Assembly (NCBI RefSeq): GCF_001306035.1
Contig: NZ_LGCM01000027.1
Coordinates: 124,001 to 188,000, forward strand
Source of the DNA: Levilinea saccharolytica
Lineage (GTDB): Bacteria; Chloroflexota; Anaerolineae; Anaerolineales; Anaerolineaceae
DNA: 64,000 nt
Direction: 5' to 3'
The stretch's first letter is position 1. Every line of letters begins with the position of its first letter. Shown in pieces: positions 36,455 through 51,278 of the stretch. The translations under genes were made by a program, and so were the position numbers. Below the pieces are notes generated by a model. It did not search any database, was not told where the DNA came from, and worked only from the letters and a program-made list of their open reading frames with translations.

Positions 36455-38623
36455 CTAGCTCTTGTGGTGCTTCTGGATCACTTCCAGTACCTCTGGGAAG
36501 TCAATCCCCAGCCGTTTCACCGTTTCCAGCGTCGGAACACCGTTCATATCCCACCCGCGGCGTTTGTACACGGCATCCACCAGCATCTCATAGCGGTCTT
36601 CTCGGTATTTGCGCAGCGCAGCCACCTTCTCTGCCGTGCTCATACCATCAATATTGATTCCAGCATCGTTAATCAAGGACTGATCGTAGCGTTCCTGCCT
36701 TGATTCATATTCCAGCTCGGTCACCGGTCCCATCGCCCGGTACGGTGGGTAATCATAGGCGCGCGTGCCGTACCCGCAGCGCGCATTGAAGATGCGCTGG
36801 AAGGTATACACACGCTCCGATTGCAGCATCAAATCTTCAATCCCCACCTTGACGCCGGTCACGCCCTCATACAGCCAGGTGTAGTTTTCCACATGCTCCG
36901 GCACTTTAGCAGGTTCTTTGGCGGTTTTGTTGCTCTCCGGGATAATATCATTCCACGGCAGTTTGCACAATCCGTGCAGACTGAACCACGTCCGCCAGAT
37001 GGGGAAGTAATGCAGCGCCTCAGCCTTCGCCTCAAAAGTCGGCAGCTGCTTGTGCACCAGTTCCATGAAAATCAACCAGGCTTCGTCGTGCTGCGCGCCC
37101 TTCGAGGCCAGCGCGTACCCGCCTTGCTGAGTCAGCGACTCTTTGGTCATGTATTCGGAAATCTCAAGACCCTTCACTTCCATACCGATGTCCTGCAGGA
37201 AAGCCGCATCCGCGCCAAAATGCTCCACAAAGTATGCCTTCATATGGCGAATGCCCTGACCCACAATCAGACCAAAGCCCTCGCCCCGCGCCATCTGATG
37301 CAGCAGTTCCAACGCCGCATCCGTGTTCCCCCAGGTAAAATCCAACCCGCCGGTGTGTTCTTTGGTCAAAATGCCGTTTTCCCAGCATTCCATCACAAAA
37401 GCGATCGAGTTCCCCGCCGAGATCGTATCAATCCCGTAGGTATCGCAGTAGAAGTTCAGTTCCAGAATATCGTTCGGGCAGAAAATATTCAAATTCGAAC
37501 CTAAGCCGCCCAGGGTTTCATACTCTGGCCCATCCACAAACACCTTTTGGCCCTTGTAAGGCCCAGAGCGCAGTTCGTATTCATTCACCGCGTGAGCGCA
37601 GGCCATCGTGCAGCCGTACCAACAGCCGTCCGGTCCACGCCGGTCAAATTGCGGCTTCCACACGTCTCCGGCGATCTTATGGGCCTCGTCATGCGCCCCA
37701 AAGCGGTAATTCTGCGTGGGCAGCAGGTCGAAGCGGTTCATGATTTCCACGAGATACGGGGTTCCCGTCCCGCGCATATCGTTTTGCGATTCGTCAAACT
37801 GCGTGATTTCCCGATTGATGCGCTGTCCTGCCTTTTGCAGCAGCGCCATATCCGCCACACCGTTGCTGTTGGCGTTCATATTGCTGTAGCGCACCACAAT
37901 CGCCTTAATGTGTTTATCGCGCAGTACCCGGCCGGCCCCACCGCGCGCCGCTTGTTTATAGCGGATTTCATCCCGCCGTGGATCATAATAACTCACGTTC
38001 AAACCGCACATGGCCACATGGTCGGCCGCCTGCCCGGCGGACACCACCGAGATGCCTCGTTTTTCCTTGGGGGTATCCCCGTACATATCCGTCAGCAGCC
38101 GCGCAATCAAATGCGTGTCCACCGGCTCCAACGGAGCCGTCTCCACCCGCACCTCACCCAGATCACCGTCTACGATGATAATGACGTCCTGTTCGGCCTT
38201 GCCCTGAATTTCAATCGCATCCCAGCCAGCAAACTTGAGATACGGGCCAAAATAACCGCCGCTGTTGCTGTCAATCGGTACACCCGTCTGCGGCGAAATG
38301 GTCACAGCTGTGCATTTCCCGCTGCCCGGGTAATTGGATATCCCCCCAATCACACCCCCCGTAATCACCAGCTCATTCTCCGGGTCGTTCCAGCGCGTTT
38401 CGGGGCGCGTTCCATTCCACAGCAGCCACAGCCCAAACCCTCTTCCGCCTGTGAAAACCCGTTTCATCTCTTCTGTGACCGGTTTGCTCTGGATCGTTAA
38501 ATCTCCAAGATTCACATACAGCGTACGGTTTGCATAGCCGCGCTCCACAGGCCGCAGATCATAGGAAAACTCAGCTAGAAGTTGATGCGCTTCACGCGCT
38601 GCAGCAGGCGAAAGAACGGTCAT
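36455..38623 (-). CDS. aldehyde ferredoxin oxidoreductase family protein (tungsten/molybdenum pterin)
   Basis: 722 residues. N-terminal AOR domain binds the metal-pterin (VFTGGRGFGLWLLW, 56-69; SGKCTAVTISPQTG). The Fe-S ligands are C334-x3-C338-x3-C342 (GCWYGCTMACAH) and a later Cys in GLCKLPW, a spacing slightly different from the CxxCxxxC of Pyrococcus AOR. Expected to oxidise an aldehyde (or reduce an acid) with ferredoxin; longer than archaeal AOR (~605). Start ATG 38623 has GGAGGAG seven bases upstream. Stands alone, divergent from the chaperone operon. Confidence 0.85.
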   Translation of the reverse strand: MTVLSPAAAREAHQLLAEFSYDLRPVERGYANRTLYVNLGDLTIQSKPVTEEMKRVFTGGRGFGLWLLWNGTRPETRWNDPENELVITGGVIGGISNYPGSGKCTAVTISPQTGVPIDSNSGGYFGPYLKFAGWDAIEIQGKAEQDVIIIVDGDLGEVRVETAPLEPVDTHLIARLLTDMYGDTPKEKRGISVVSAGQAADHVAMCGLNVSYYDPRRDEIRYKQAARGGAGRVLRDKHIKAIVVRYSNMNANSNGVADMALLQKAGQRINREITQFDESQNDMRGTGTPYLVEIMNRFDLLPTQNYRFGAHDEAHKIAGDVWKPQFDRRGPDGCWYGCTMACAHAVNEYELRSGPYKGQKVFVDGPEYETLGGLGSNLNIFCPNDILELNFYCDTYGIDTISAGNSIAFVMECWENGILTKEHTGGLDFTWGNTDAALELLHQMARGEGFGLIVGQGIRHMKAYFVEHFGADAAFLQDIGMEVKGLEISEYMTKESLTQQGGYALASKGAQHDEAWLIFMELVHKQLPTFEAKAEALHYFPIWRTWFSLHGLCKLPWNDIIPESNKTAKEPAKVPEHVENYTWLYEGVTGVKVGIEDLMLQSERVYTFQRIFNARCGYGTRAYDYPPYRAMGPVTELEYESRQERYDQSLINDAGINIDGMSTAEKVAALRKYREDRYEMLVDAVYKRRGWDMNGVPTLETVKRLGIDFPEVLEVIQKHHKS

Positions 38624-38676
38624 GAAAAGTCTCCTCCGGAATATGAGTGGGGCCGAATCCAAAATGCCCTCATTTT

Positions 38677-38682
38677 ATTATA
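38677..38682 (-). promoter_or_regulatory. -10 TATAAT for aldehyde oxidoreductase
   Basis: Minus-strand TATAAT 53 bases before the ATG; TTCGCA (four of six matches) lies 17 bases further upstream. Confidence 0.5.
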
Positions 38683-38783
38683 GCCATTCGCCTTCCGTCT
38701 GCGAAAAACACATTTCCTCAACCGGGGCGACAAATGTCACCAGTCCACCCTCACGGTGTCAGGCGCGCGCTGGCAAGGCAAGG

Positions 38784-38789
38784 TATAAT
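38784..38789 (+). promoter_or_regulatory. -10 TATAAT for AAA+/Hsp70 operon
   Basis: TATAAT inside the small dyad AGGTATAATACCT, 35 bases before the AAA+ ATPase start. No good -35. The only strong promoter-like element seen for the whole eight-gene run. Confidence 0.5.
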
Positions 38790-38824
38790 ACCTTCGCATT
38801 CCCGAATCACACCTGGAGCTTCAC

Positions 38825-40348
38825 ATGTCCTTTGAGGAACAACTCGACCTATCTCTGCGTTCACGCTTCACTTTGCTGCTCATCACCACCCTGGAAGAAG
38901 AGCGCGTTCTGGAAACCATCCGCGCCCTCTGCGACCGCTTGCAGCGCACCGGCCTCACCTGGGATCTTGCAGACGGTTTCCAATGGTTGACCAAACCTAA
39001 CGGTGTTCTTCCCCAGGCGCGCGATCCGCAAACCGCCCTCGACCAAATTGAAAAATTCACCTCCCCCACGGCGCTGTTTATCCTCAAAGATTTTCATGAA
39101 TCCTGGACAAACCCGCAAATTAAAAGGAAGCTGCGCTCCCTCGGACAAAAGCTCAAACAAACCCAAAAATCCCTGCTCATCACCGCGCCGGTTTCTCGCG
39201 TTCCCGATGAACTCCGCGATGAATTTGTGATTATCGAACACCCTCTCCCCGATGCCAGGGATATGGAACAGGTGCTGAAAAACCTCACCGGCCAGCCCGG
39301 TGTGCGCGTCAATCTCACCCCGCTGGGGCGCGAAAAAATCGTTCAGGCAGCCCTCGGCCTCACCTTTGCCCAGGCGCGGCGCGTGTTCTCCAAAGCCCTG
39401 GTCACCGACGGCATATTAGATGACCGCGACATCCAGTTGATCACCGACGAGAAAAAACAGATCATCCGCGAAAGCGAAGCCCTGGAATTCTACGCCGTCA
39501 GCGAAACGCCCGAAGATGTCGGCGGTCTCGAAGTGCTCAAAGCCTGGCTGCGCCTGCGTGAAACCGCCTTCTCACAGGAAGCTCGCGATTACGGCCTGCC
39601 TGCGCCCAAAGGCATCGCCCTCATCGGTATCCCCGGCACAGGCAAAAGCCTGACCGCCAAGATGATCGGCGGTCTTTGGCGCCTCCCCCTGCTGCGCCTG
39701 GATGTCGGCGCACTCTTCGGCTCGCTGGTGGGTGAATCCGAAGAACGCAGCCGCCGCGCCCTGCACCTGGTCGAAACCGTGGCCCCCTGCATCCTCTGGA
39801 TTGACGAGATGGAAAAAGCCCTGGCCCACGGCGGCCTGGATTCCGGCACCAGCACCCGCGTGTTTGCCAGCATCCTCACCTGGATGCAGGAAAAAACTTC
39901 TCCCGTCTTTGTCGTGGCCACCGCCAACGATATCGCCGCCATCCCCCCCGAGCTCCTGCGCAAAGGCCGTTTCGACGAAATATTCTTCCTGGATCTCCCC
40001 ACCGAGGATGAGCGCCGCGAAATTTTCACCGTCCATCTGCGCAAACGCCGCCGCCTGCCTGAAGATTACGATCTCGACCGCCTGGCAGCCGAATCCTATG
40101 GATACGTCGGCTCTGAAATCGAACAAGCCATCATTGACGCCATGTACATTGGCTTCAACGATTCGCAGCGCGAATTTACCACCCAGGACATCTCCACCGC
40201 CCTCAAACGTCAGGTTCCCCTCTCCATCTCTCATCGGGAACGCATCATGGCGCTGCGTGCCTGGCTGGCCGAAGGCCGTGCCCAATCCGCTTCCTTCTAC
40301 GAATCCGGTGAAGCCGCCACGCGGTTCGTCGATATAGACCCATCCTAA
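38825..40348 (+). CDS. AAA+ ATPase, Ycf46-like
   Basis: 507 residues. Residues 1-200 form the N-terminal region characteristic of plastid/cyanobacterial Ycf46 proteins (a degenerate ATPase-like fold that uses no P-loop: LEEERVLETI, TALFILKDFHESW, SLLITAPVSRVPDELRDEFVIIEHPLP). Residues ~230-480 are a classical AAA domain: Walker A GIPGTGKS (268-275), Walker B CILWIDEMEK (322-331), sensor-1 ATAND (365-369), Arg finger region RKGRFD (379-384). No protease or membrane segment. Likely a hexameric remodeller. First gene of an eight-gene operon; the WD40 gene starts four bases after its stop. Confidence 0.85.
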   Translation: MSFEEQLDLSLRSRFTLLLITTLEEERVLETIRALCDRLQRTGLTWDLADGFQWLTKPNGVLPQARDPQTALDQIEKFTSPTALFILKDFHESWTNPQIKRKLRSLGQKLKQTQKSLLITAPVSRVPDELRDEFVIIEHPLPDARDMEQVLKNLTGQPGVRVNLTPLGREKIVQAALGLTFAQARRVFSKALVTDGILDDRDIQLITDEKKQIIRESEALEFYAVSETPEDVGGLEVLKAWLRLRETAFSQEARDYGLPAPKGIALIGIPGTGKSLTAKMIGGLWRLPLLRLDVGALFGSLVGESEERSRRALHLVETVAPCILWIDEMEKALAHGGLDSGTSTRVFASILTWMQEKTSPVFVVATANDIAAIPPELLRKGRFDEIFFLDLPTEDERREIFTVHLRKRRRLPEDYDLDRLAAESYGYVGSEIEQAIIDAMYIGFNDSQREFTTQDISTALKRQVPLSISHRERIMALRAWLAEGRAQSASFYESGEAATRFVDIDPS

Positions 40349-40352
40349 TCTC

Positions 40353-43034
40353 ATGCCGCCTGCATCGACCCAGAATTTCTCGCTGCTGCGCGCCCTGCTG
40401 CTCAATTCGCTGCCTGCCGCCCTGGGGGGCAGCTTTTTGCGCGCCCTGGCCCTGCAATTCCTCATTCACAAAATCTCGCGTCCCTCCCATCCTCAGGCGC
40501 TCATCGTTCTCGCCCAGGGCGTCTCCGCTCCGCTGGATAGTGAAGCCCGGCGGCAAATTGCCGCCTGGGTCGATAAGATCAAACCGTCCTCCGGTTACGA
40601 TTCGCTTTGGGAAAGCTGGAAACAATCGCGCAGCGCCGATCTAGGGCAGGCCCTGCGCGTGCTCAACCGCACCGCCCAGCCAGCCTCCCCCGCCTATGCC
40701 CTCAGCCAAATCACCCTGGGCTATGATCAGCGCCTGGCATCTTCCTCCTCCAGCCGCACCGTGCGGCAGGTGATTGACCTTTTCCTCTCCGATCCCCAAG
40801 AAAACGTCCGCGGCGCCGCCGAACAAATCCTCCTGCACTTGAAAAAAACCGAGGCGGTGGAAGCCCTCTTCGCCGAATGTCGCCAGCGTAAAGAGCCTCG
40901 TCTGGCCGAATTAATCCTGCGCGCAGCCTATCCGGTCTCCCCATCCTTTTCAGCCGAGGTGTTGGTGTTCAGCGCCTTGCTCACCAATCACCCTGAAACC
41001 CTTTTCAACCTCTCACCCGAAGGTCTGCCCTTTCTCTGGGAATATGCCCAGGGCAGCGACGCCGTCCTGGCGGAGCGCGCCCAATTCTGCCTGCACAACC
41101 TCCAGCACCCCGAAACCATCTCTCGCTTCGCCGCGCAGTGGGCCGAATCTCGCACCCCAGAAATGGAAGCCGTGCTGCTGCATGCCGCCTATGTCCCCGC
41201 CGCCTCCGAAGGGCTGCGCCTGCTGTGCGCCCTTAAAGTTGGCCGCCAGGATATCGCCCGACGCACTTCGCCCGCTCAGCTTCAAGATCTGTTTACCTTT
41301 ACCCAGGATCCAGACCCTGAGATCGCCGCAGCAGCCCGCGCCGCGCTGCTCTCCCTGGAAGATCAATCCGCCCTGGATGCCCTTTGCCAGCAGTTCCTGG
41401 ACACACAGGACACCGCCCTGCTAGAGCTGATCAAAACCGCCGGTTATTTGCCCACGAATCCCGAAGACCAGGCCGCGGTCTTATTCCTCACCGGCCAGTA
41501 TGACCGCTATGACGCTCTGGACTTCGACCAGCGCCTGCTGCGGACCTTCTTCGCGGCTACCACCCAACGGGGCTTGCGCCAAAAGATCGTCCGCCGTGTG
41601 CAGGAGGCCGGCCGCGTACAGTACCTCACCATCCTGACCGGTTCCGATTTTCGCTCCACCGCCGCTGTCACCAGCCGCGATGAAGCCTCGGTGATGATTC
41701 GCGTCCTGGCTGCCAACCAGGAATGGGAAAAGCTCTGGCGGCTCATTTTTGAGTTCAACCTCAGCAGCGGCCTGGAAGCATTGCAGCGCCTGCAGAGGCA
41801 GCATTGGCTGCCCGCCGCCCCTGAGGATCAGCTCTGCTTTCAGCAGCTGCTCGAGTTGTCTCAGCAGCCCATGCAAAAGGACGCCCAGGCGGCCGCCCAG
41901 GAAATCCCCTGGGTTTTGGAACGTGAGCGCCTGCGCGTTTCCGGTCGGGTAAATGACATTGCCTTTTCGCCCACCGATCCCCATCTCATCCTGGCCACCG
42001 ATCGGCGCCAGGCGGTCATCTGGGACTATCAGCGCGCGCAAGTCGCCCAAAAAATCGGCAAATTTGACCATTCTCTGGGTTCTGTGGAGTATTCCTCCAC
42101 CGGTGAGGTCTATCTGGCGGAGCGCACCAACTCCCTCACCGCATCTTGCGGGCTGTACGGCTGGAAAGAAGGCCAACTACGCAAAATTGGTGCTCACAAC
42201 GGTTCCATCACCGCCCTGCGCCCATTGAAAGATCAGCGCGTGCTCACCTCTGGCCGTGACTTCCGTGCTTATATTTGGGATGCCCGCCAGTCCAATTCCG
42301 CCGTCGCCGTGCCTCTCAACGACAACTGGCCCCGCTCCGTGGCCGTTTCTGACGATGAAGTCTGGATGCTGGTATTGCATGAAAGCCTGGACCTCATTCG
42401 CCTGGATGATCTCACCTATCATTTCTTCACCTTTCTGCGCACCAGAGCCGCCCGCAGTATCTATCAATTCGCCCTCTTCACGCCGGAACCCTCCCAATTC
42501 CTGGCTGCCCAGCGCAACGGGGAGCTGCTGCTTTTCACGCCCAGCAAAGACCACGAAGCCTATTATGTCGGCCGTAAACGGCACAAGTTTTCCTCCTCTC
42601 TGGCGGGCCTGGAATTTTTGGATGACCGCAGCGGCATCGTGGCTGCCACCACAGCCGGAGAGATCCAATTGCTCTCCTGGCCGCAGCTCAAAGTCAACCA
42701 TTCCTATTCGTCTGGCACACCCCTCACCTCGCTGTGCCTTTCCCCCGACAGCAGCTTTCTGGCCGTGGGCACCACTGCTTCCAATCTCACCCTCTATGAT
42801 CTGCGCCAGTTAAAGATTCCAGACCTCCTATCGATGCCCTTAGGCCAGGCCACCCAGGCGCATTTCGCCGCCCTGCAAACCCTCCTGCAGAGCAGTGCCC
42901 CCCTCAGTGGCCCGCTGCGCAGCGCCCTCCAATGGGTGTACCTGTGCCTCTCGCAGCGTTTTCGCTTCGATGTGGAAATCGGCGCCATACCCACCCTGAC
43001 CGTCGGTGAATTTGATATTCTTCTTGAGGAGTGA
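40353..43034 (+). CDS. HEAT-like/WD40 repeat protein A
   Basis: 893 residues. The first ~510 are helical with HEAT-like periodicity (VRQVIDLFLSDPQENVRGAAEQILL, VLAERAQFCLHNLQHPETI, PDPEIAAAARAALLSLEDQ), and ~530-830 contain WD40-like beta repeats (VNDIAFSPTDPHLILATDRRQ, ALRPLKDQRVLTSGRDFRAYIWD, LTSLCLSPDSSFLAVGTTASN). The tail RFDVEIGAIPTLTVGEFDILL resembles the tail of protein B at 46361-48610, and the helical middle parts are also similar, so the two are paralogues. No catalytic motif, signal or membrane segment. Probably a scaffold or client-recognition subunit of the operon's machinery. Last codons overlap the upstream possible GTG start of the grpE-like gene. Confidence 0.8.
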   Translation: MPPASTQNFSLLRALLLNSLPAALGGSFLRALALQFLIHKISRPSHPQALIVLAQGVSAPLDSEARRQIAAWVDKIKPSSGYDSLWESWKQSRSADLGQALRVLNRTAQPASPAYALSQITLGYDQRLASSSSSRTVRQVIDLFLSDPQENVRGAAEQILLHLKKTEAVEALFAECRQRKEPRLAELILRAAYPVSPSFSAEVLVFSALLTNHPETLFNLSPEGLPFLWEYAQGSDAVLAERAQFCLHNLQHPETISRFAAQWAESRTPEMEAVLLHAAYVPAASEGLRLLCALKVGRQDIARRTSPAQLQDLFTFTQDPDPEIAAAARAALLSLEDQSALDALCQQFLDTQDTALLELIKTAGYLPTNPEDQAAVLFLTGQYDRYDALDFDQRLLRTFFAATTQRGLRQKIVRRVQEAGRVQYLTILTGSDFRSTAAVTSRDEASVMIRVLAANQEWEKLWRLIFEFNLSSGLEALQRLQRQHWLPAAPEDQLCFQQLLELSQQPMQKDAQAAAQEIPWVLERERLRVSGRVNDIAFSPTDPHLILATDRRQAVIWDYQRAQVAQKIGKFDHSLGSVEYSSTGEVYLAERTNSLTASCGLYGWKEGQLRKIGAHNGSITALRPLKDQRVLTSGRDFRAYIWDARQSNSAVAVPLNDNWPRSVAVSDDEVWMLVLHESLDLIRLDDLTYHFFTFLRTRAARSIYQFALFTPEPSQFLAAQRNGELLLFTPSKDHEAYYVGRKRHKFSSSLAGLEFLDDRSGIVAATTAGEIQLLSWPQLKVNHSYSSGTPLTSLCLSPDSSFLAVGTTASNLTLYDLRQLKIPDLLSMPLGQATQAHFAALQTLLQSSAPLSGPLRSALQWVYLCLSQRFRFDVEIGAIPTLTVGEFDILLEE

Positions 43035-43039
43035 AGTCC

Positions 43040-43546
43040 ATGTCCCCCTGGTTTTCGTCCAACCAAGAACCGCAGCGCGAAGAAATTCACGAATTTCAAA
43101 ATAAGATCCAATCCCTGCAAATGGAACTCACCGAGCGTGATAAAATCATCGCTGCCCTTCAGGCCGACCTGACCCGTTTGCGGCTTCAGCAAGATGAGCT
43201 GCAAAGTGCCGCCGTCGGTCAGGCCCTTGAGCAATATATCAAAGACATCGCGCCCACCGCCGTTCAGATCTACACGCAAGCGTATTTGCTGGAATCCCAG
43301 ACTCGACCGGTGGCCGCAGAAAGCATCGCCCTGGCTGCTGTCCGATTGCTGCACGGTCTGGAGCCGCTGGGATTCCAGACCATCGGTGAAATCGGGGCAA
43401 ACGTCAGTTTTGACCCCACCCTGCACATGCCCCTCAGTCCCGATTCTGAGCCCGGGTCAGGAGAAGCTGCGGTGATCCGTCTGGTAGGGATTGCCTTCCG
43501 CGGTCAGGTGCTGCGCAAGGCAGGTGTGGAACGTAGAAAGGATTGA
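43040..43546 (+). CDS. GrpE-like nucleotide exchange factor
   Basis: 168 residues. A coiled coil at ~10-60 (EIHEFQNKIQSLQMELTERD) is followed by a helical bundle and a C-terminal beta domain with the GrpE pattern (SFDPTLHMPLSPDSEPGSGE, then VGIAFRGQVLRKAGVER; compare FDP..H.A....D...G.V....+.GY...GRVLR.A.V in GrpE). The ATG at 43040 has GAGGAG eight bases upstream; a GTG at 43031 overlapping the WD40 stop is an alternative. It should release ADP from the Hsp70 encoded two bases downstream. It differs strongly from housekeeping GrpE in its N-terminal part. Confidence 0.8.
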   Translation: MSPWFSSNQEPQREEIHEFQNKIQSLQMELTERDKIIAALQADLTRLRLQQDELQSAAVGQALEQYIKDIAPTAVQIYTQAYLLESQTRPVAAESIALAAVRLLHGLEPLGFQTIGEIGANVSFDPTLHMPLSPDSEPGSGEAAVIRLVGIAFRGQVLRKAGVERRKD

Positions 43547-43548
43547 GC

Positions 43549-45138
43549 ATGGCCGGCCGTTTAGCTGTTGATTTTGGCACCTCCAACACCGTTCTGGCAC
43601 TCTGGGATCCCACCCATCAGGAAGGGCTCCCGCTGCGTCTGTCAGAGTATTCACGCTCTTATCAGCAGGACGGCTCACCCGTCTATGTCATCCCCTCACT
43701 CATCCACTACGCCGAAGACGACCGGCGTTGGATCGGCAGTCAGGTCATCCAGCGCGGCCTCTACCAATCCCAACGCACCTTTCGTTGGATGAAGCGCTAC
43801 ATCAGCAGCCGCAGCCCCATTCGCGTGCGTCTCAACGGCCGCGAGATCACTCCCTATCAGGCAGGTGAAGATTTTCTTTCCACCCTGCTGCTCTTCGCCG
43901 GGGAAGAAACCGGCGCCAACCAGGAAGAAGTCGCCTTTTCCGTGCCGGTGGAGGCCTACGAGCATTACGAAAACTGGCTGGTCAAGGTGGCCGAAAATGC
44001 CGCCATGCCGCGCTTTCGCCTGATTGATGAGCCTTCAGCCGCCGCCCTGGGGTACGGTGCCCACATCCAGCCCGGCAACGCTTATCTGATCTTTGATTTT
44101 GGCGGCGGCACCCTGCATGCTGCCGTCGTCCTCATGGAAGCCGAAGCCTCTCAAGACGGCGGGCGCCGCTGCCGGGTGTTGGGCAAAGCCGGGCGCACCA
44201 TCGGCGGGACCAGTATTGATCAATGGTTGTACATGGATTTTCTTAAGCGCAATCAGCGCCTGGAATCCGATGAAGAAATCCGCCGCCTTTCCAATCTGCT
44301 TCTGGTCGAATGTGAGCGCGTCAAGGAGACTCTCTCCTTCCAGGAATCTGCCGACCTGAATCTAATCAACCCCGATTCGGGCGAGATGCTTTCCGCCGCC
44401 TACACTCGTTCCAACTTCGAAGAAATCTTGGATCAGCACGAACTGTACGCCGGCATCAACCACACTGTCCGCGGGGCCATCAACGCCGCCCGCGAACGTG
44501 GGTATAACGAAGAATCCATCCAGGCCGTTCTCATGGTCGGCGGCTCCAGCCAAATTCCCTCCGTGCAGCGCACCTTGCGGCAGTACTTTGGCAAAGAGCG
44601 CGTCTTTTTCAACCGCCCCCTGGACGCCATCGCCCGCGGGGCCGCCGCCTTCGTGGCCGGGGTGGATTTCTTCGACCATATCCAGCACACCTACGCCATC
44701 CGCTACATCAACCCCCAAAAAGGCACCTACGATTACCATCCCATTGTGCCCAGCGGTACGCGCTACCCCACCACCCAACCCGTCTCCCGCCTCACCATCA
44801 AAGCCTCCTATGACGGCCAGAATCAGCTCGGTCTGGCCATCTACGAAATGAGTCACAACACCGCGCCCAGCAAGCCGGAGATGGAGCTGGTCTTTGACCC
44901 CACCGGAGCCGCCCGCGTCATCCAGTTGTCTCCGCACGAACAGGAACAAAGAACCCTGTATTGGATGAACGAATCCAGCCCCACCTTCCTCAGCGCCGAT
45001 CCACCTGCCCGTCAGGGTGAAGCCCGCTTTGAGGTAGAATTCAATATTGACGCCAATAAGCGTCTCACCATCACCAGCCGCGATCTGTCCACCGGAACGC
45101 TGACCCATAAGGACTTCCCGGTGGTTCGCTTAGTATAA
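43549..45138 (+). CDS. Hsp70-family chaperone lacking the lid
   Basis: 529 residues versus ~610-640 for DnaK. The nucleotide-binding domain is intact: phosphate-1 DFGTSNT (8-14), K82 at the DnaK K70 position (WMKRYIS), phosphate-2 DFGGGT (183-188), adenosine motif VGGSSQIP (330-337), and IDEPSAAALGYG. About 140 residues of beta-rich substrate-binding domain follow (from ~385), then the chain ends at DFPVVRLV without the helical lid or an EEVD-type tail. Such lidless Hsp70s usually serve a dedicated partner. No DnaJ gene is present. ATG 43549 lies two bases after the GrpE-like stop. Confidence 0.9.
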   Translation: MAGRLAVDFGTSNTVLALWDPTHQEGLPLRLSEYSRSYQQDGSPVYVIPSLIHYAEDDRRWIGSQVIQRGLYQSQRTFRWMKRYISSRSPIRVRLNGREITPYQAGEDFLSTLLLFAGEETGANQEEVAFSVPVEAYEHYENWLVKVAENAAMPRFRLIDEPSAAALGYGAHIQPGNAYLIFDFGGGTLHAAVVLMEAEASQDGGRRCRVLGKAGRTIGGTSIDQWLYMDFLKRNQRLESDEEIRRLSNLLLVECERVKETLSFQESADLNLINPDSGEMLSAAYTRSNFEEILDQHELYAGINHTVRGAINAARERGYNEESIQAVLMVGGSSQIPSVQRTLRQYFGKERVFFNRPLDAIARGAAAFVAGVDFFDHIQHTYAIRYINPQKGTYDYHPIVPSGTRYPTTQPVSRLTIKASYDGQNQLGLAIYEMSHNTAPSKPEMELVFDPTGAARVIQLSPHEQEQRTLYWMNESSPTFLSADPPARQGEARFEVEFNIDANKRLTITSRDLSTGTLTHKDFPVVRLV

Positions 45139-45170
45139 TTGCTGGAACCCATAGGTTTTTGGAGGTCAAA

Positions 45171-45551
45171 ATGTCGCATTTCTCTCGCATCAAGACCAAA
45201 CTAGTTGAACGTGTGTATCTCCTGGCGGCCCTGAAAGACCTGGGCTACCAAGTTGAAGAAGGTGATTTAAAGGTGGGCGGCTTTGCGGGCGCAAGTCAAA
45301 AAGTGAACATCAAAGTCAAGTTAAACCTCAGCTACGATATTGGTTTCCGCGAGACTCCTACTGGCTACGAACTGGTGGCCGATTGGTGGGGCGTTCGCGG
45401 TCTGGAAAAAGATGTCTTTCTTGATAAACTCAGCCAACGCTATGCGTACCATGCCACCCGGTCGCGCCTGGAAGAACAAGGCTTCACCCTGGTAGAAGAA
45501 ACCACCGAAAAAAACGGCGAAGTCCGTTTGGTTCTGCGCAAGCTGGCCTGA
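45171..45551 (+). CDS. DUF1257/Ycf35-family protein
   Basis: 126 residues starting MSHFSRIKTKLVERVYLLAALKDLGYQV, the diagnostic opening of DUF1257 (plastid Ycf35). YDIGF (near 58) and VADWWG (near 71) are other conserved segments; Cys is absent. Function of the family is unknown. ATG at 45171 has GGAGG five bases upstream; the 32-base gap after the Hsp70 gene is the largest inside the operon. Paired with the DUF2997 gene 24 bases downstream, an association I recall from cyanobacteria. Confidence 0.9.
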   Translation: MSHFSRIKTKLVERVYLLAALKDLGYQVEEGDLKVGGFAGASQKVNIKVKLNLSYDIGFRETPTGYELVADWWGVRGLEKDVFLDKLSQRYAYHATRSRLEEQGFTLVEETTEKNGEVRLVLRKLA

Positions 45552-45575
45552 CCCTCAGGCAAAGGAGATCGGAAC

Positions 45576-45785
45576 ATGGATCTGCAAGAGATTGAGATCA
45601 CCATCAACAAAAAGGGGCAGGTAGAGATCCACGTGCGCGGCGTCAAAGGCAAAGCCTGCCTGGATCTGACCCAAAGCCTCGAAGCCGCCCTGGGGGGCGA
45701 AGTCCTCCTGCGCGAAATGACCCCCGAAGCGCTGGACGAAGACAACCCCCTGGGAAATTCACAGCAGTTGACCACCAAAAGCTAA
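45576..45785 (+). CDS. DUF2997-family small protein
   Basis: 69 residues with the DUF2997 layout: strand IEITINKKGQVEIHVRGVKGKACLDLT, then helix LEAALGGEVLLREMTPEAL. The single Cys (C28) in GKxC followed by Asp-Leu-Thr sits at the position where family members usually carry GxxC..T. No known activity; it could be a peptide-sized adaptor or a modified substrate for the radical-SAM protein encoded 15 bases downstream. AAAGGAG site before the ATG. Confidence 0.8.
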   Translation: MDLQEIEITINKKGQVEIHVRGVKGKACLDLTQSLEAALGGEVLLREMTPEALDEDNPLGNSQQLTTKS

Positions 45786-45800
45786 GGCCAGTACCCTGCC

Positions 45801-46364
45801 GTGACCTCTGCGCTTCAAGTGCACCATCTGGAACCGTCCAGCAAGGTGAACGGCCCCGGCCAGCGCGCCGTAGTGTGGCTGCAAGGCTGCACCCTGGCCT
45901 GCCCGGGCTGCTTCAACCCGCTGACTCACGCCCCCAAGGGCGGAGCCTCCTACGCAGTGGATTCCGTCTATCAGTGGGTTCAATCCCTGCCGCCAGAAAG
46001 CACTGGTCTCACCATCTCCGGCGGCGAACCGCTCCAGCAGCTGAGCCCCCTCATTCAACTGCTCCAGCAGGTTCGCGCCAACACCACCCTCTCGGTCATC
46101 CTGTTCACCGGGTACACCTGGGAGGAAATTCACAAAATGCCGGGGGCGTCCGCTCTCATGGGTCTGTTGGATGTGTGCATCGCTGGCCGCTTCCAGCAAG
46201 CCAGCCGCCTCGCTCATCATTTGGCCGGATCTGCCAACAAAACCTTCCATTTTCTCACCAGCCGTTACAGCCCAGCCAATTTCGAGCAAGTGGAGCAGGC
46301 TGAAATCATCCTGGCCCCCGACGGCGAAATTCGCATCAGCGGCATTAATCCGCCCGCCCTATGA
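45801..46364 (+). CDS. radical-SAM activase-like protein (NrdG/PflA-like, 4Fe-4S single-cluster)
   Basis: 187 residues. The cluster motif C30-xxx-C34-xx-C37 (QGCTLACPGCFNP) and TISGGEPLQQ (71-80) identify the small radical-SAM group containing the anaerobic ribonucleotide reductase activase NrdG. No glycyl-radical enzyme or class III reductase gene is adjacent; instead it is embedded in a chaperone/WD40 operon, so its target is probably encoded in that operon. GTG start at 45801. Its TGA overlaps the ATG of WD40 protein B (ATGA). Confidence 0.82.
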   Translation: MTSALQVHHLEPSSKVNGPGQRAVVWLQGCTLACPGCFNPLTHAPKGGASYAVDSVYQWVQSLPPESTGLTISGGEPLQQLSPLIQLLQQVRANTTLSVILFTGYTWEEIHKMPGASALMGLLDVCIAGRFQQASRLAHHLAGSANKTFHFLTSRYSPANFEQVEQAEIILAPDGEIRISGINPPAL

Positions 46365-48610
46365 CCCCCGAAGATCTGCACGCCCTGGCCAAGTTTCTCA
46401 GCAGCGCCAACCCCCAGACGTTGGAGTCCAGCGCCCTGCAGCAATTCTTATTGCTGCGCGGGGCCGTGGCCGCTCTGCAGGACGACGGCTCTCACCAGGC
46501 GGCAGCCTTTTTAGCCCAGGCCGCCGCGGATTGCCCCATCCCAGAAACCCGCGCACTGGCCCTTCAGGCCCTGGGGCTAATGGCCTCCCAGGGTTCTCCC
46601 GATGCCCTTCGCCAGCTTTTTGACCTGTACTTCACCTGGGGCAGCCCAGACACTGCCCAGCAAATTATCACCCGCGGGCTTATCCATCCGGACCCCCAGG
46701 CGCAAAATGCCTTCGCCTTCCTCACCCAGCCGCCCGACCAATGGGCCAGTCAACCGCAGGCCTACACCGCTCTCACCGCCTTCTATCGCCAGGCCGAGCC
46801 GGCCGTTCAGAAGCATCTCCTTCAGGCAGCCAAAAATTACCACCTGTCCCCCTGGATCTGGATCGTCACCATCGCAGCATCCCCCGATCAACCCGAAGCC
46901 TACGCGGACATCCTGAATCACGGCTACCCCACCCTCAATGGCGAGCTGCGCGCCCTCTTCCTCGCTGTTCTGTCCGAACACATACAGAAGGGCAGTCAGC
47001 CAGCTGCGGATGCACTGGCGGCTTTATTCTTACGTTTCGACGATCCCCAGGCCCTGCAAACAGCCGTAACCCTCAAAGCCGCCCCATCCGACTCGCTGCA
47101 GCGCGCCTTGTTCTTCTTCCTCTCCGGCCAATGGGCGGAATACGAGCGCGTAGATTTTAACCACACGCTGCTCACATCGCTTTACGAAAGTGCCTCACCC
47201 GCTCTTCGCCGCCGCATCCTAGCCCAAAGCCGCACCTCCGGCCACATCGAATGGCTGAACCCGGCTGGCGCGGTCCGGCCGCGCTGGCTTTCGGAGCTTT
47301 CTCCCGCCGATTGGCAGGCAGCCGTCCAATCCCTGGCCCAATCCGACCGCACCGCGGATCTGTGGAAGCTGATCCTGGTTTCCCCGCCCACCGAATCGGT
47401 GCGCATCCTCGACGTCCTGCGTTCGCTCCAATGGCAGCCGCCCAACGCAGAAGACCGCGGCTTTTATTCCCAATTGTTAACCCTGGCGGGCGATTGTCTC
47501 AAGACCCCTTTCACCCTGCCTCAGCCGCGCCGCCTGAAGGGGCTGGAAGCTGTGGTATCGTCCCTGCTCTTCGAACCCTCCGGAAAACATCTCATCGTCG
47601 GAACTGCTGCCTCGGCCATCCACTTCTTTGATATTCCTCATTGGGACTTGCAGGGTCAGGTCATCCTGGCTCCCACCCGCCCCATTCGCACCCTGGCGGT
47701 CAACACCCAGGGCTCCTATCTGGCTGCCGCGGGCGGTGATAACGCCGTCCATATTTTCCGCCTGGATAATTTTCAGCTGGCCAAATCGATCACCGGCCAC
47801 ACCAATTTGATCCGCGGCCTGGCCATCGCCGCCGATGAACGCACCCTTTACAGCGCCGGGTTTGACGGAACCGTGCGCGCCTGGCGCTTTCCCGTCGGCG
47901 GGGAACTCTGGCAGGCTGCCCCTGGGGATCAGGAAATCACCGCGCTGCACTGCTCTGCCCAGGGCGACCTGCTCATCACCACCGGCAGCCTCGGCAAATT
48001 GCACGTTTGGGGCGCAGCCGACGGGCAAATGCTCTGGGAGCTGTCCGCGCATGACGGCCCCATCACCGCTTTAGCCCTCTCACCCTCCTCCGCCGCTGCG
48101 GTCACCGCCGGGCGCGACAGCCGTCTGTGCATCTGGAATTACGCCAGCGGACGCAGCCTGAACCAGTTCAGCCTCTCTTCCGAAACAGGCCGCGCCACCT
48201 GCCTCGTCCATCACCCCACCGCCTCAGCCGTTTTCATGGGGGATGACCGCGGTCAAATCACCTGCTGGAATCCGACCAACGGACAGGCTCTGCTGCCTGC
48301 GCTCACCAGCCATTCCAAAACGGTCCTCGCTGCCGCCATCTCACCCGACGGGCGCTTTTTGGTCACATCGGGCATGGAGGGCGCTTTGCTTGCCTGGGAT
48401 TTAGAGCTCTTCCTTTTAACCCATCAGAATCTAGAACAGCTCACCCCAGCCGCTTTGCCGCGCGTGCAAAGCCTGCTGACCGCTGCTGCCCGCCCAACAG
48501 AGCGCGTCTGGCTGTCCTATGTGCTAGAAATTCTCCGCCGCCGTCAAAAATACGAAATCGAACTGGGTTCCGCTGTCATCCAGGCCGGAGAATTTGATAT
48601 TCAGCTATAA
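46361..48610 (+). CDS. HEAT-like/WD40 repeat protein B
   Basis: 749 residues. Helical N-terminal ~380 residues, then about seven WD40-like repeats (VVSSLLFEPSGKHLIVGTA, IRTLAVNTQGSYLAAAGGD, IRGLAIAADERTLYSAGFDG, ITALALSPSSAAAVTAGRDS, VLAAAISPDGRFLVTSG) ending with EIELGSAVIQAGEFDIQL. The helical part shares a pattern with protein A (F/L-L-S/T-GQ-Y/W..Y....DF..LL, then LR..I......G...YL). Translationally coupled to the radical-SAM gene. No enzyme motif. Last member of the eight-gene set; the MFS gene follows after 28 bases. Confidence 0.8.
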   Translation: MTPEDLHALAKFLSSANPQTLESSALQQFLLLRGAVAALQDDGSHQAAAFLAQAAADCPIPETRALALQALGLMASQGSPDALRQLFDLYFTWGSPDTAQQIITRGLIHPDPQAQNAFAFLTQPPDQWASQPQAYTALTAFYRQAEPAVQKHLLQAAKNYHLSPWIWIVTIAASPDQPEAYADILNHGYPTLNGELRALFLAVLSEHIQKGSQPAADALAALFLRFDDPQALQTAVTLKAAPSDSLQRALFFFLSGQWAEYERVDFNHTLLTSLYESASPALRRRILAQSRTSGHIEWLNPAGAVRPRWLSELSPADWQAAVQSLAQSDRTADLWKLILVSPPTESVRILDVLRSLQWQPPNAEDRGFYSQLLTLAGDCLKTPFTLPQPRRLKGLEAVVSSLLFEPSGKHLIVGTAASAIHFFDIPHWDLQGQVILAPTRPIRTLAVNTQGSYLAAAGGDNAVHIFRLDNFQLAKSITGHTNLIRGLAIAADERTLYSAGFDGTVRAWRFPVGGELWQAAPGDQEITALHCSAQGDLLITTGSLGKLHVWGAADGQMLWELSAHDGPITALALSPSSAAAVTAGRDSRLCIWNYASGRSLNQFSLSSETGRATCLVHHPTASAVFMGDDRGQITCWNPTNGQALLPALTSHSKTVLAAAISPDGRFLVTSGMEGALLAWDLELFLLTHQNLEQLTPAALPRVQSLLTAAARPTERVWLSYVLEILRRRQKYEIELGSAVIQAGEFDIQL

Positions 48611-48638
48611 TGAATAAAACCAACTGAAAGAAGGTTCC

Positions 48639-49913
48639 ATGATTCAGCTGTTTCAACGCTTGATTCGTTGGTTTTCTACGCCCCAAAGCAGCCCAACGAT
48701 ACACAAGCGCAATTTTGTAAATGTTCAAATTGACGCCATCGGTGTTGGCCTGGCCAACGCCGCCGCGCCCTTCTTACCGGTTTTCCTCGCCCGCGAAGGG
48801 GCCTCCAATCTGGAGGTCAGCCTGCTCACCACCATGCCGGCCGTCACCGGCCTGCTGCTGTCTATCCCCATTGGCCGCCTGCTCCAGCGCCAGCGCGACA
48901 TCGTCCCCTGGTTTTCCGGCTCCCGCCTGCTCTATCTCACCTCCTACGCTCTTACCGGTCTGGCCATCTGGCTGGTTCCCAAAGATTCTCTGATCTTCAC
49001 CATCCTGCTCGTCTGGGCTTTAGTCACCATCCCCCAGACCGCCCTATCCATCTCCTTTTCCGTTGTCATGAACGCGGTGGCTGGTCCGGTCGGCCGCTTT
49101 GAGTTGATGAGCCGCCGCTGGAGTATTCTCGGACTCACCACTTCCATCACCGTCATGGCTGTGGGCTGGACCTTAGATCGGCTGGCTTACCCCCTCAATT
49201 ACCAGATCGTGTTCCTAGGCCTGTCCATCGGCGGGCTGATCAGTTACTATTTTTCCAGCCACCTCACCCTGGAAAAAGTCACCCCGCCGGCCGAAATCCG
49301 CGCTCGTTCCATTCGCGAAAGCGTCCAAAACTACCTGTCCCTCATCTCCTCCCAGAAAGCCTTTGTCAGCTTTGTGGCCAAACGGTTGGTTTACAACACC
49401 GGGGCCATCCTCTCCGTCCCCCTGCTGCCTCTCTACTTCGTGCGCGAGGTAAAAGCCAGCGATTCCTGGATCGCCACCATCACCACCGCCCAGACCGCCA
49501 TCCTCATCCTCGGCTATTTCTTCTGGACCCGTCAATCCCGTTCCAAAGGCGCGCGCAAAGTCCTGCTGTGGACCACGTTCGGCCTCTCGCTCTACCCCCT
49601 GGCCGTGGCTCTCACCCATCAGGTGGGACTCATCGCCATCTTCGCCGGCGTCGCCGGTATCTTTCAGGCTGGGCTGAACCTGGTATTCTTCGATGAGCTG
49701 ATGAAAACCGTGCCGCCCGAGTACAGCGCCACGTTTATCTCCTTTTCTCAAAGCCTGGAATACATCCCCTCCATTCTTGCCCCCCTCCTGGCCTCATTCT
49801 TGGCCAGTTGGATTGGCCTGGGCGCCGGCTTGCTCATCAGCGCCGCCTTCCGCCTGATTGGCTTTCTCCTGTTTTTCTTTGAAAAGCAATCCCCAGCTTC
49901 CGCTCGCGCTTAA
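48639..49913 (+). CDS. MFS transporter
   Basis: 424 residues with about eleven or twelve hydrophobic segments. N-terminal NFVNVQIDAIGVGLANAAAPFLPVFLAREGAS precedes an MFS fold with a loop GRLLQRQRDIVPW after TM2. No family-specific motif that names a substrate. It follows the WD40 gene by 28 bases and may be read through from the chaperone operon, though it shares no obvious function with it. Confidence 0.8.
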   Translation: MIQLFQRLIRWFSTPQSSPTIHKRNFVNVQIDAIGVGLANAAAPFLPVFLAREGASNLEVSLLTTMPAVTGLLLSIPIGRLLQRQRDIVPWFSGSRLLYLTSYALTGLAIWLVPKDSLIFTILLVWALVTIPQTALSISFSVVMNAVAGPVGRFELMSRRWSILGLTTSITVMAVGWTLDRLAYPLNYQIVFLGLSIGGLISYYFSSHLTLEKVTPPAEIRARSIRESVQNYLSLISSQKAFVSFVAKRLVYNTGAILSVPLLPLYFVREVKASDSWIATITTAQTAILILGYFFWTRQSRSKGARKVLLWTTFGLSLYPLAVALTHQVGLIAIFAGVAGIFQAGLNLVFFDELMKTVPPEYSATFISFSQSLEYIPSILAPLLASFLASWIGLGAGLLISAAFRLIGFLLFFFEKQSPASARA

Positions 49914-49962
49914 ATGTTGGATGAGAGTTTGGATTTTTGCGCCAATTTCTGCTAAGATTGGC

Positions 49963-49968
49963 TATAAT
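49963..49968 (+). promoter_or_regulatory. -10 TATAAT for rhodanese gene
   Basis: TATAAT 51 bases before the start at 50019 in the 105-base gap after the MFS gene. A TTGCGC at 49937 is too far (20-base spacer) to be convincing. Confidence 0.45.
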
Positions 49969-50018
49969 ATTGATGATATTTACGATCAGCATTATCTGTA
50001 TAGAAGACTGAGGCCGCT

Positions 50019-50885: not shown

Positions 50886-51278
50886 GTGAATATTCCAGCT
50901 AATTTAAAGTATGCCGAAACCGATGAGTGGGTCCTGGTCGAAGGCAATGTCGCTACCATTGGTATTTCCGATCACGCTCAGGATCAACTGTCGGACATCG
51001 TCTTCGTCGAAATCGTGGTTTCTGAAGGCGATACCGTGAAGAAAGGGGCTACCTGCGCCACCCTCGAATCTGTGAAAGCCGCTGCGGATGTCAACCTGCC
51101 CGTCTCTGGCAAAGTTGTCGCCATCAACGAAGATCTCGCCCAGACTCCCGAAGTGGTCAACAGCGATCCCTACGGGAAAGCCTGGATGGTCAAAGTTGAA
51201 CTCGCCAACCCTGGCGAACTGACCGGTATGATGGACGCCGCTGCATACGAGAAATACTGCGCGGAACGGAGTCACTAA
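50886..51278 (+). CDS. gcvH: glycine cleavage system H protein
   Basis: 130-residue lipoyl carrier. The lipoyl Lys is K64 in LESVKAAAD; YAETDEWV near the N-terminus and NSDPYGKAWMVKV near 92 are family landmarks. It shuttles the aminomethyl group between P, T and L proteins. GTG start at 50886, preceded by AGGAGGA; the stop overlaps the gcvPA start (TAATG). Controlled by the riboswitch upstream. Confidence 0.97.
   Translation: MNIPANLKYAETDEWVLVEGNVATIGISDHAQDQLSDIVFVEIVVSEGDTVKKGATCATLESVKAAADVNLPVSGKVVAINEDLAQTPEVVNSDPYGKAWMVKVELANPGELTGMMDAAAYEKYCAERSH

Follow-up and report, generated by a model that had tools for sequence, protein, structure and literature searches.

The window analysed here is a stretch of 64,000 nucleotides of Levilinea saccharolytica, a member of the Anaerolineaceae in the phylum Chloroflexota (assembly GCF_001306035.1, contig NZ_LGCM01000027.1, positions 124,001 to 188,000), taken from a genome of 4.23 Mb that is 97.65% complete. 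Between positions 38825 and 48610 it contains eight open reading frames with checked translations, all on the + strand, which encode an AAA+ ATPase, two WD40 proteins (WDa and WDb), a GrpE-like protein, an Hsp70, members of the DUF1257 (Ycf35) and DUF2997 families, and a radical S-adenosylmethionine (radical-SAM) protein. An earlier interpretation made from the letters alone (the sequence-only reading) had described eight same-strand genes with gaps of -4 to 32 bases, and this was borne out: the gaps are +4, -4, -4, +32, +24, +15 and -4 bases, with the DUF1257 start placed at its conserved MSHF methionine (45171). The genes, and the two tail segments discussed below, are as follows.

38825-40348, + strand: AAA+ ATPase of 507 aa, PF00004 family, Walker motifs GIPGTGKS and ILWIDE intact (Pfam)
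40353-43034, + strand: WDa, 893 aa, a WD40 propeller after an N-terminal half of weak HEAT similarity (Pfam, BLASTP)
42957-43031, + strand: C-terminal tail of WDa, RFRFDVEIGAIPTLTVGEFDILLEE (tail pattern and profile)
43031-43546, + strand: GrpE-like nucleotide exchange factor, 171 aa (PF01025)
43543-45138, + strand: Hsp70 without helical lid, 531 aa from TTG, with an alternative ATG at 43549 (Pfam, DnaK alignment)
45171-45551, + strand: DUF1257 (Ycf35 family), 126 aa, Met-Ser-His start (PF06868)
45576-45785, + strand: DUF2997, 69 aa, conserved Gly25 and Cys28 (PF11211)
45801-46364, + strand: radical-SAM protein, Fer4_12/NrdG-like, 187 aa from GTG, CxxxCxxC (Pfam, NCBIfam)
46361-48610, + strand: WDb, the second WD40 protein, 749 aa (Pfam, BLASTP)
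48542-48607, + strand: C-terminal tail of WDb, RQKYEIELGSAVIQAGEFDIQL (tail pattern and profile)

The families proposed for the GrpE-like, DUF1257 and DUF2997 proteins were confirmed by Pfam matches above the cut-offs, at 33.1 bits for PF01025 (cut-off 25.8), 95.9 bits for PF06868 (cut-off 22.2) and 67 bits for PF11211 (cut-off 24.1), the GrpE-like protein staying under the cut-offs of the NCBIfam GrpE models. The AAA protein matches PF00004 at 92.7 bits and resembles IetA (68.5 bits against a cut-off of 510); no Ycf46 model was among its Pfam or NCBIfam matches, the name Ycf46 being a label given by the sequence-only reading. The same reading had called WDa and WDb HEAT-like/WD40 paralogues. 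Their WD40 domains (Pfam) and their paralogy (24% BLASTP identity over 564 columns, E 5e-16) are upheld, whereas HEAT_2 reaches 23 bits in WDa, under the cut-off of 27.7, and does not appear among the rows shown for WDb.

The Hsp70 matches PF00012 at 113.2 bits, and the motifs of its nucleotide-binding domain align with those of DnaK. In this alignment the protein stops where the beta substrate-binding domain of DnaK stops, with nothing beyond, and thus it lacks the helical lid, as had been read from the sequence. A QHDYA-like motif replaces LLLDV in the interdomain linker, the DnaK equivalog models give 105.1 and 104.9 bits against cut-offs of 648 and 822.55, and the best NCBIfam match is HscA at 113.4 against 708.55. 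Two full-length, ordinary DnaKs are encoded elsewhere in the same genome. Compared with canonical DnaK-GrpE, the operon proteins share the Hsp70 ATPase motifs and the GrpE partner, but the Hsp70 differs in the missing lid, the altered linker and scores far under the DnaK cut-offs, and the operon has no J-domain protein.

Using profiles grown from the window proteins, we surveyed 63 loci in addition to the window: 18, seven minus the repeats L038 and L040, and two sets of 20, the one comprising 19 loci of a Planctomycetota survey and one of Chloroflexota and the other 20 of 71 Myxococcota genomes. Near copies such as L020 and L109/L110 are retained in the counts over these 64. On the same strand and within 7.5 kb of DUF1257, DUF2997 was present in 60/64 loci and the AAA gene in 56/64, followed by WD40 (21/64), Hsp70 (20/64), radical-SAM (20/64) and GrpE (8/64) genes; six of the eight loci with no AAA gene near DUF1257 end upstream at a contig end. 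Within one Chloroflexota family the order is AAA-(WDa)-(GrpE)-Hsp70-DUF1257-DUF2997-radical-SAM-WDb, where WDa and GrpE are optional, and because this order is conserved between genera the arrangement goes beyond chance. AAA, DUF1257 and DUF2997 also occur together in Myxococcota, Planctomycetota and plasmid loci: 23 Myxococcota loci have this trio, with no Hsp70, radical-SAM or WD40 match to our profiles, and 5/19 loci of the Planctomycetota survey additionally have an Hsp70 or radical-SAM gene (L106, L113 at 9 kb, L115, L116 and L117). The operon is an elaboration of this wider AAA-DUF1257-DUF2997 module.

The gene co-occurrence check proposed with the sequence-only reading, run here around DUF1257, thus found the partners recurring in the 64 loci and did not refute the idea of one machine. 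The co-occurrence is recurrent yet patchy, DUF1257 being found in 18/61 relatives (own genome included) and in 5/350 genomes drawn from the phylum Chloroflexota. It was also found in 29/343 genomes of the phylum to which a Planctomycetota record belongs (roughly half of the 29 weak or partial), 71/282 from that of a Myxococcota record, and 9/247 from that of an Acidobacteria record (eight weak).

A midpoint-rooted tree of 60 AAA proteins placed all 15 that stand beside a lidless Hsp70 within one group of 19 rows (support 100/99). Of the other four rows in this group, two come from Planctomycetota-survey loci that have a radical-SAM gene and no Hsp70; the remaining two are the reduced system L028 and a Geminocystis plasmid. 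Two cyanobacterial plasmid copies nest among the Chloroflexota family rows (fork 86/90), so horizontal transfer is favoured for them, and since the Hsp70 label needs three changes on this tree, gains or losses of Hsp70 have occurred.

WDa and WDb end in a common tail with the consensus …FDIEI…GEFDIEL, which reads ..RFDVEIG..LTVGEFDILLEE in WDa and ..KYEIELG..IQAGEFDIQL in WDb. Hydrophobic and acidic residues alternate in it, and judging from this sequence the tail may form two strands. The tail pattern was present in 28/33 WD rows scored, namely those with a profile score above 200 or from L164, weaker rows such as L036, L117 and one of L041 lying outside this scoring; the five rows without it are L022 (contig end), L164 13814 (which stops mid-tail), a transposase-adjacent piece, L028 and L041. 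When a profile of the last ~62 residues, built from 19 rows, was run over the 61 genomes, it gave 26 matches in 17 genomes, of which 25 fell in 16/18 DUF1257-bearing genomes and one, a weak match (E 0.009), elsewhere. The majority of the 25 come from profile rows or near copies of these, those in G015, G024 and G035 being independent. Two lie on contigs other than that of the operon (G024 C426 and G035 C310), the operon contig being truncated there. The telling part is that, bar the one weak match, there are no further tail matches in the system-free genomes or in the genome of L. saccharolytica itself, where the profile matches WDa and WDb alone.

Mean identity to the window proteins within the family was 71.9% for AAA (10 loci), 60.3% for DUF2997 (14), 58.5% for Hsp70 (14), 53.5% for DUF1257 (14), 51.3% for radical-SAM (13), 35.4% for GrpE (4), 32.7% for WDb (12) and 32.0% for WDa (7 true WDa). 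Conservation within the family is lowest for the WD40 propellers, with GrpE next. The proposal that the eight genes serve one dedicated machine is well supported by the conserved order, the separate Hsp70 beside two DnaKs, the single AAA branch and the private tail. Beyond what had been noted before, the present analysis adds the AAA-DUF1257-DUF2997 core, the phage-borne DUF2997-DUF1257 pair described below, and the tail common to both WD40 proteins.

Both small families of the core are marked by strongly conserved residues. The DUF2997 cysteine was found in 111/111 copies from four sets, with the G..C spacing in 109/111. In 48 DUF1257 rows, selected by a start pattern with some divergent copies left out, Met-Ser-His, Gly58, Asp71, Trp72 and Tyr91 are invariant; as a family-wide invariant, Met-Ser-His was rejected, divergent copies outside these 48 rows breaking it. 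This motif (45171-45179 in the window) was found in 58/65, 6/6, 41/41 and 1/3 frames of four sets and differs in L116, L026, L123 and L244, some other misses being broken or partial frames. Because it is kept in most copies, phage ones included, the extreme N-terminus of DUF1257 may be functional. An AlphaFold2 model of DUF1257 reached a pLDDT of 91.1, and that of DUF2997 was poor (66.4). Foldseek with the DUF1257 model returned no match at E <= 0.001, and the best VIA match (Z 6.6, root-mean-square deviation 3.4, 81 aligned) lies within the common range of that tool; the KA1/AMPK-like rows (Z up to 6.6) are at noise level and were not trusted. Profiles of both families gave nothing credible against the PDB.

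In the literature searched, no function was found for DUF1257 (Ycf35) or DUF2997, although both families span many phyla. The consulted part of a 2014 review lists DUF2997-ycf35-fed7 as cyanobacterial cluster g (PMC4284462). In the sections consulted of two further papers, loss of Ycf46 (slr0374) is said to lower EcaB activity, attributed there to Jiang et al. 2015 (PMC7496141), and ycf35 and ycf46 are named among the genes missing in two freshwater red algal plastids and retained in a marine one (PMC5940233).

The radical-SAM protein matches Fer4_12 at 109.2 bits (Pfam), has the CxxxCxxC and NGPG motifs, and carries a conserved C-terminal stretch. Its best named radical-SAM model is NrdG, at 106.4 bits and under the cut-off of 126.1; the label NrdG-like, as given in the sequence-only reading, thus holds for the motifs and the Fer4_12 match but not for the NrdG equivalog. 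The operon copy was seen in 15/18 DUF1257-bearing relatives, being absent from G015 and G018 and cut by a contig end in G024. The motifs, the best model and a Gly_radical domain in 11/15 genomes with the operon radical-SAM gene would all suit an ordinary activase of the NrdG type, which would serve a glycyl-radical enzyme and have unrelated chaperone genes as operon-mates. Against this, no PF13597 (NrdD) match was found in the L. saccharolytica genome, at its 97.65% completeness, and NrdD occurs in 1/15 of these genomes and is missing from the other 14; both NrdD and the Gly_radical domain are missing from four of the 15 (G004, G020, G021 and G036), of which G004 and G021 are 99% complete. On these counts the activase was rejected as a candidate, and we consider it highly improbable. 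Relative to NrdG itself, the operon protein shares the radical-SAM core and both motifs and differs in its conserved C-terminal stretch, its AAA neighbours and the lack of NrdD in its own genome.

Plasmid relatives of the radical-SAM protein also count against the activase. Of 27 plasmids holding a relative at E <= 1e-12, 12 were chosen across genera or hosts, two of which were unannotated and left unscored. In 10/10 annotated contexts an AAA+ gene lies within four genes on the same strand; no glycyl-radical enzyme was annotated in any of the ten. A Paenibacillus polymyxa plasmid has AAA-DUF1257-DUF2997-radical-SAM, and three actinobacterial plasmids have AAA-(141 aa)-DUF2997-X-radical-SAM, and in 1/3 of these the 141 aa protein has a weak match to the DUF1257 profile (E 3e-4). 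Four proteobacterial plasmids (L245, L248, L250 and L253) share a PIN/hypothetical/AAA/radical-SAM set; a large AAA-domain gene precedes the set in three, its place in L253 lying outside the stretch read, and the AAA protein is ClpB-like (AAA_2) in the one scanned. Two of these four plasmids are typed conjugative, and the Moellerella copy has partial PADLOC matches. A Calothrix plasmid has Hsp70-TPR-radical-SAM-X-AAA. On a Treponema succinifaciens plasmid, radical-SAM-AAA is next to a baseplate gene, the AAA protein scoring 743 bits with the AAA profile, and DUF1257 lies in a tail cluster of the same plasmid. A single origin of the radical-SAM link was rejected: on an AAA tree of 47 rows, left after removal of 18 long branches or near copies, the radical-SAM label needs five changes, at least four of which are forced by well-supported branches, and the link has therefore been gained or lost repeatedly.

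The presence of a radical-SAM gene within the operon, together with the DUF2997 cysteine in 111/111 copies, raises the alternative that the machine matures a redox or Fe-S enzyme: the radical-SAM protein and the DUF2997 cysteine would do the chemistry and Hsp70/AAA would insert the product. The neighbourhood of DUF2997 and ycf35 to the ferredoxin gene fed7 in cyanobacteria, as listed in the consulted part of PMC4284462, also fits, as does HscA as the best NCBIfam match of the Hsp70, though this score is far under its cut-off. However, Pfam shows no cofactor-assembly domain among the eight proteins, no radical-SAM gene was found near DUF1257 in L027 and L164, and the neighbouring aldehyde ferredoxin oxidoreductase (AOR) is not an obligate client. 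We regard this alternative as rather unlikely. Maturation of AOR in particular, suggested by a divergent AOR gene near the operon in 9/18 system genomes, was rejected because 5/18 DUF1257-bearing genomes have no AFOR_C (PF01314) match and because in 10/10 loci from DUF1257-free genomes this AOR type occurs with no AAA, DUF1257, DUF2997 or radical-SAM gene around it; two of the ten loci have a weak Hsp70-like or tail-less WD40 frame nearby.

A further reading places the chemistry on DUF2997 itself: the NrdG-like enzyme would make a radical or modified cysteine at Gly25/Cys28, DUF1257 would present DUF2997 to the AAA+ ring, tailed propellers would pick the client, and phages would use the pair they carry to supply the host ring or take it over, all as one mobile AAA+/radical-SAM module. 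The DUF2997-DUF1257 pair is common without a nearby radical-SAM gene, which argues against this reading, and we hold it to be improbable. The simpler claim of the sequence-only reading, that the radical-SAM protein modifies the client, finds no support here: searches around DUF1257 in L027, L028, L117 and the Pseudanabaena cluster described next yielded no copy of its gene.

DUF1257 also travels on plasmids and viruses. It is contained in 18 plasmid records, five of which were examined. Plasmid pPg_01 of Pseudanabaena galeata carries GrpE-Hsp70-DUF1257-(AAA_21 ATPase, 167 aa protein)-DUF2997-AAA-WD40, with more WD40 genes on both sides, an Hsp70 58% identical to that of the window, and no radical-SAM gene in 20 kb around the cluster. 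To its one GrpE-Hsp70-DUF1257-DUF2997-AAA set belong three WD40-type genes with the full tail; a fourth tail is carried by a gene fragment that follows a transposase, and another WD40 protein, the fifth, ends half-way through the tail. Nostoc and Halotia plasmids have DUF1257-DUF2997-AAA followed by a WGR gene. In Prochlorococcus phage P-SSM2 the DUF2997 gene is directly upstream of DUF1257, and in viral loci the two stand side by side in 41/41 (37 found via DUF2997 and 4 via DUF1257) with no other operon family matched in the 2.6-11.9 kb at hand, so the pair looks like a self-standing unit. An AAA_21 ATPase and a small partner lie between DUF1257 and DUF2997 on one cyanobacterial plasmid (L164:10430-12000), and an AAA_21 ATPase that matches AbiLi at 262 bits lies with an RloB-family partner just before DUF1257 on another (L165:6168-8095). 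On the Treponema plasmid pTRESU01 (L166 and L256), DUF1257 and AAA-radical-SAM lie within contractile-injection clusters.

These contexts bear on whether the operon is a conflict system, anti-phage or inter-bacterial, in which the propellers would sense an invader and the chaperone/AAA machine would switch an effector. Copies on plasmids, some of them conjugative, speak for it, together with the toxin-antitoxin, restriction and transposase genes surrounding the Pseudanabaena cluster, the AAA_21 ATPase and small partner beside DUF1257 on two cyanobacterial plasmids, the injection genes around DUF1257 and AAA-radical-SAM on the Treponema plasmid, the neighbours that the core has in other phyla (FHA, vWA and FGE-sulfatase genes), and the diverged propellers. 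Yet Pfam shows no effector domain among the eight proteins, PADLOC gives partial matches at most (mainly IetA-like AAA), and the operon has a syntenic chromosomal setting in many Chloroflexota loci. Phages carrying the DUF2997-DUF1257 pair also count against it, although use of the pair in counter-defence stays compatible. A conflict role is, in our estimate, unlikely, while deserving consideration.

The reading we favour, and to which we give about an even chance, is that the operon encodes a dedicated machine that remodels proteins at the expense of ATP and takes propellers as plug-in receptors. Its core would consist of the AAA+ ATPase and the small proteins DUF1257 and DUF2997, joined in the Hsp70 branch by the lidless Hsp70 (sometimes with GrpE), usually the radical-SAM protein, and one or more WD40 proteins. 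Judging from its sequence and distribution, the tail may be a plug that docks interchangeable propellers on the shared machine. Each propeller would capture a client, which the Hsp70 and the AAA+ ring would refold, assemble or dismantle; DUF1257/DUF2997 may serve as an adaptor pair of the ring, and the radical-SAM protein may make an optional modification on the client or on DUF2997. That the WD40 proteins may choose the client, as the sequence-only reading had it, is consistent with the tail and with propeller divergence.

Several observations weigh against this reading. The 41 viral loci, in stretches of 2.6-11.9 kb, have no AAA, Hsp70, radical-SAM, GrpE or WD40 match. WDa, GrpE and the radical-SAM protein are each absent from some systems, and L028 has a WDb-like protein without the tail. 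Instead of being a plug, the tail may simply cap the WD40 protein structurally. Divergence is weak evidence for recognition because WD40 scaffolds diverge fast generally and GrpE is nearly as diverged; between the nearest pair of genomes GrpE is the lowest (83.6%), with WDb at 87.0, radical-SAM at 88.9, WDa at 91.8 and Hsp70 at 98.1%. Finally, no known fold was found for DUF1257 or DUF2997, the Foldseek and VIA matches being at noise level.

We found no published description of this operon composition, in searches that covered few subscription papers, and none of the known kinds of system compared appears to share its core, a judgement that rests on undescribed families and a partial literature. 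The cyanobacterial DUF2997-ycf35-fed7 cluster is alike in that both small families are adjacent, and their pair also occurs on a cyanophage and on the Nostoc and Halotia plasmids; as listed in the consulted part of PMC4284462, however, it has no Hsp70, radical-SAM or WD40 gene. The NTP-dependent conflict systems of Kaur et al. 2020 (PMC7159879) resemble the operon, in the sections consulted, in their AAA+ chaperones, beta-propellers and variable parts, with Hsp70-GrpE in one subgroup, and a VMAP subgroup is named there in Chloroflexi, Planctomycetes and Cyanobacteria. Their own core, as described there, is a MoxR-clade AAA with vWA, or a GTPase, plus effectors, whereas the operon AAA belongs to PF00004 and Pfam shows no vWA, GTPase or effector domain among the eight proteins. 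The anti-phage system IetAS is similar in that the operon AAA domain resembles IetA, but the score is far under the IetA cut-off of 510 and no protease domain (IetS) occurs among the eight proteins.

With these results, DUF1257 and DUF2997 gain recurrent partners: the AAA+ ATPase, to which one branch adds Hsp70, radical-SAM and WD40 proteins. On phages the two occur as a minimal DUF2997-DUF1257 pair, and a short tail marks the propellers of the system and offers a handle for experiments. Should the tail prove to be a plug, a single machine would serve several receptors, as a modular bacterial chaperone of an unfamiliar kind, and the function of the DUF1257 and DUF2997 families would become directly testable.

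Two further features flank the eight genes.

38784-38789, + strand: candidate -10 element TATAAT without a recognisable -35, read by eye from the sequence, the promoter scan being silent
48639-49913, + strand: transporter of the major facilitator superfamily (MFS), candidate ninth operon gene (PF07690, 70.6 bits)

A promoter-like element had been placed at the front of the operon. This was not confirmed: a scan of 38500-50000 gave no + strand sigma-70-type promoter, and the three promoter-like sites that it did give (2.8 expected) all lie on the minus strand, leaving the lone TATAAT. The MFS gene begins 28 bases past WDb on the same strand, and a same-strand MFS gene lies downstream in eight loci, counting the window and its near copy; the operon may therefore be a unit of nine genes.

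Farther out, the window neighbours at 33945-35786 (-), 36455-38662 (-) and 50886-54086 (+) show a synteny that recurs in several loci, with a glmS-like gene and the divergent AOR gene upstream and MFS and gcvH/gcvP-like genes downstream (AOR and MFS named by Pfam, glmS and gcv by eye), which argues for vertical inheritance there.

Other genes recur around the core in more distant loci. In Myxococcota, FHA-domain genes precede the trio in L137:3338-8239 and L128:6213-8213, one encoding vWA plus FHA and one FHA with a coiled coil, and a gene family with an FHA representative recurs in 23/64 loci. At L041:6135-6911 (Acidobacteria) and L117:4369-5208 (Planctomycetota survey), the Hsp70/AAA/DUF1257 operon includes an FGE-sulfatase (SUMF1-like) gene. 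Contractile sheath and tube genes are found near the trio in L043:12922-16051 and L110:16676-18976, and a sheath homologue is present in L109.

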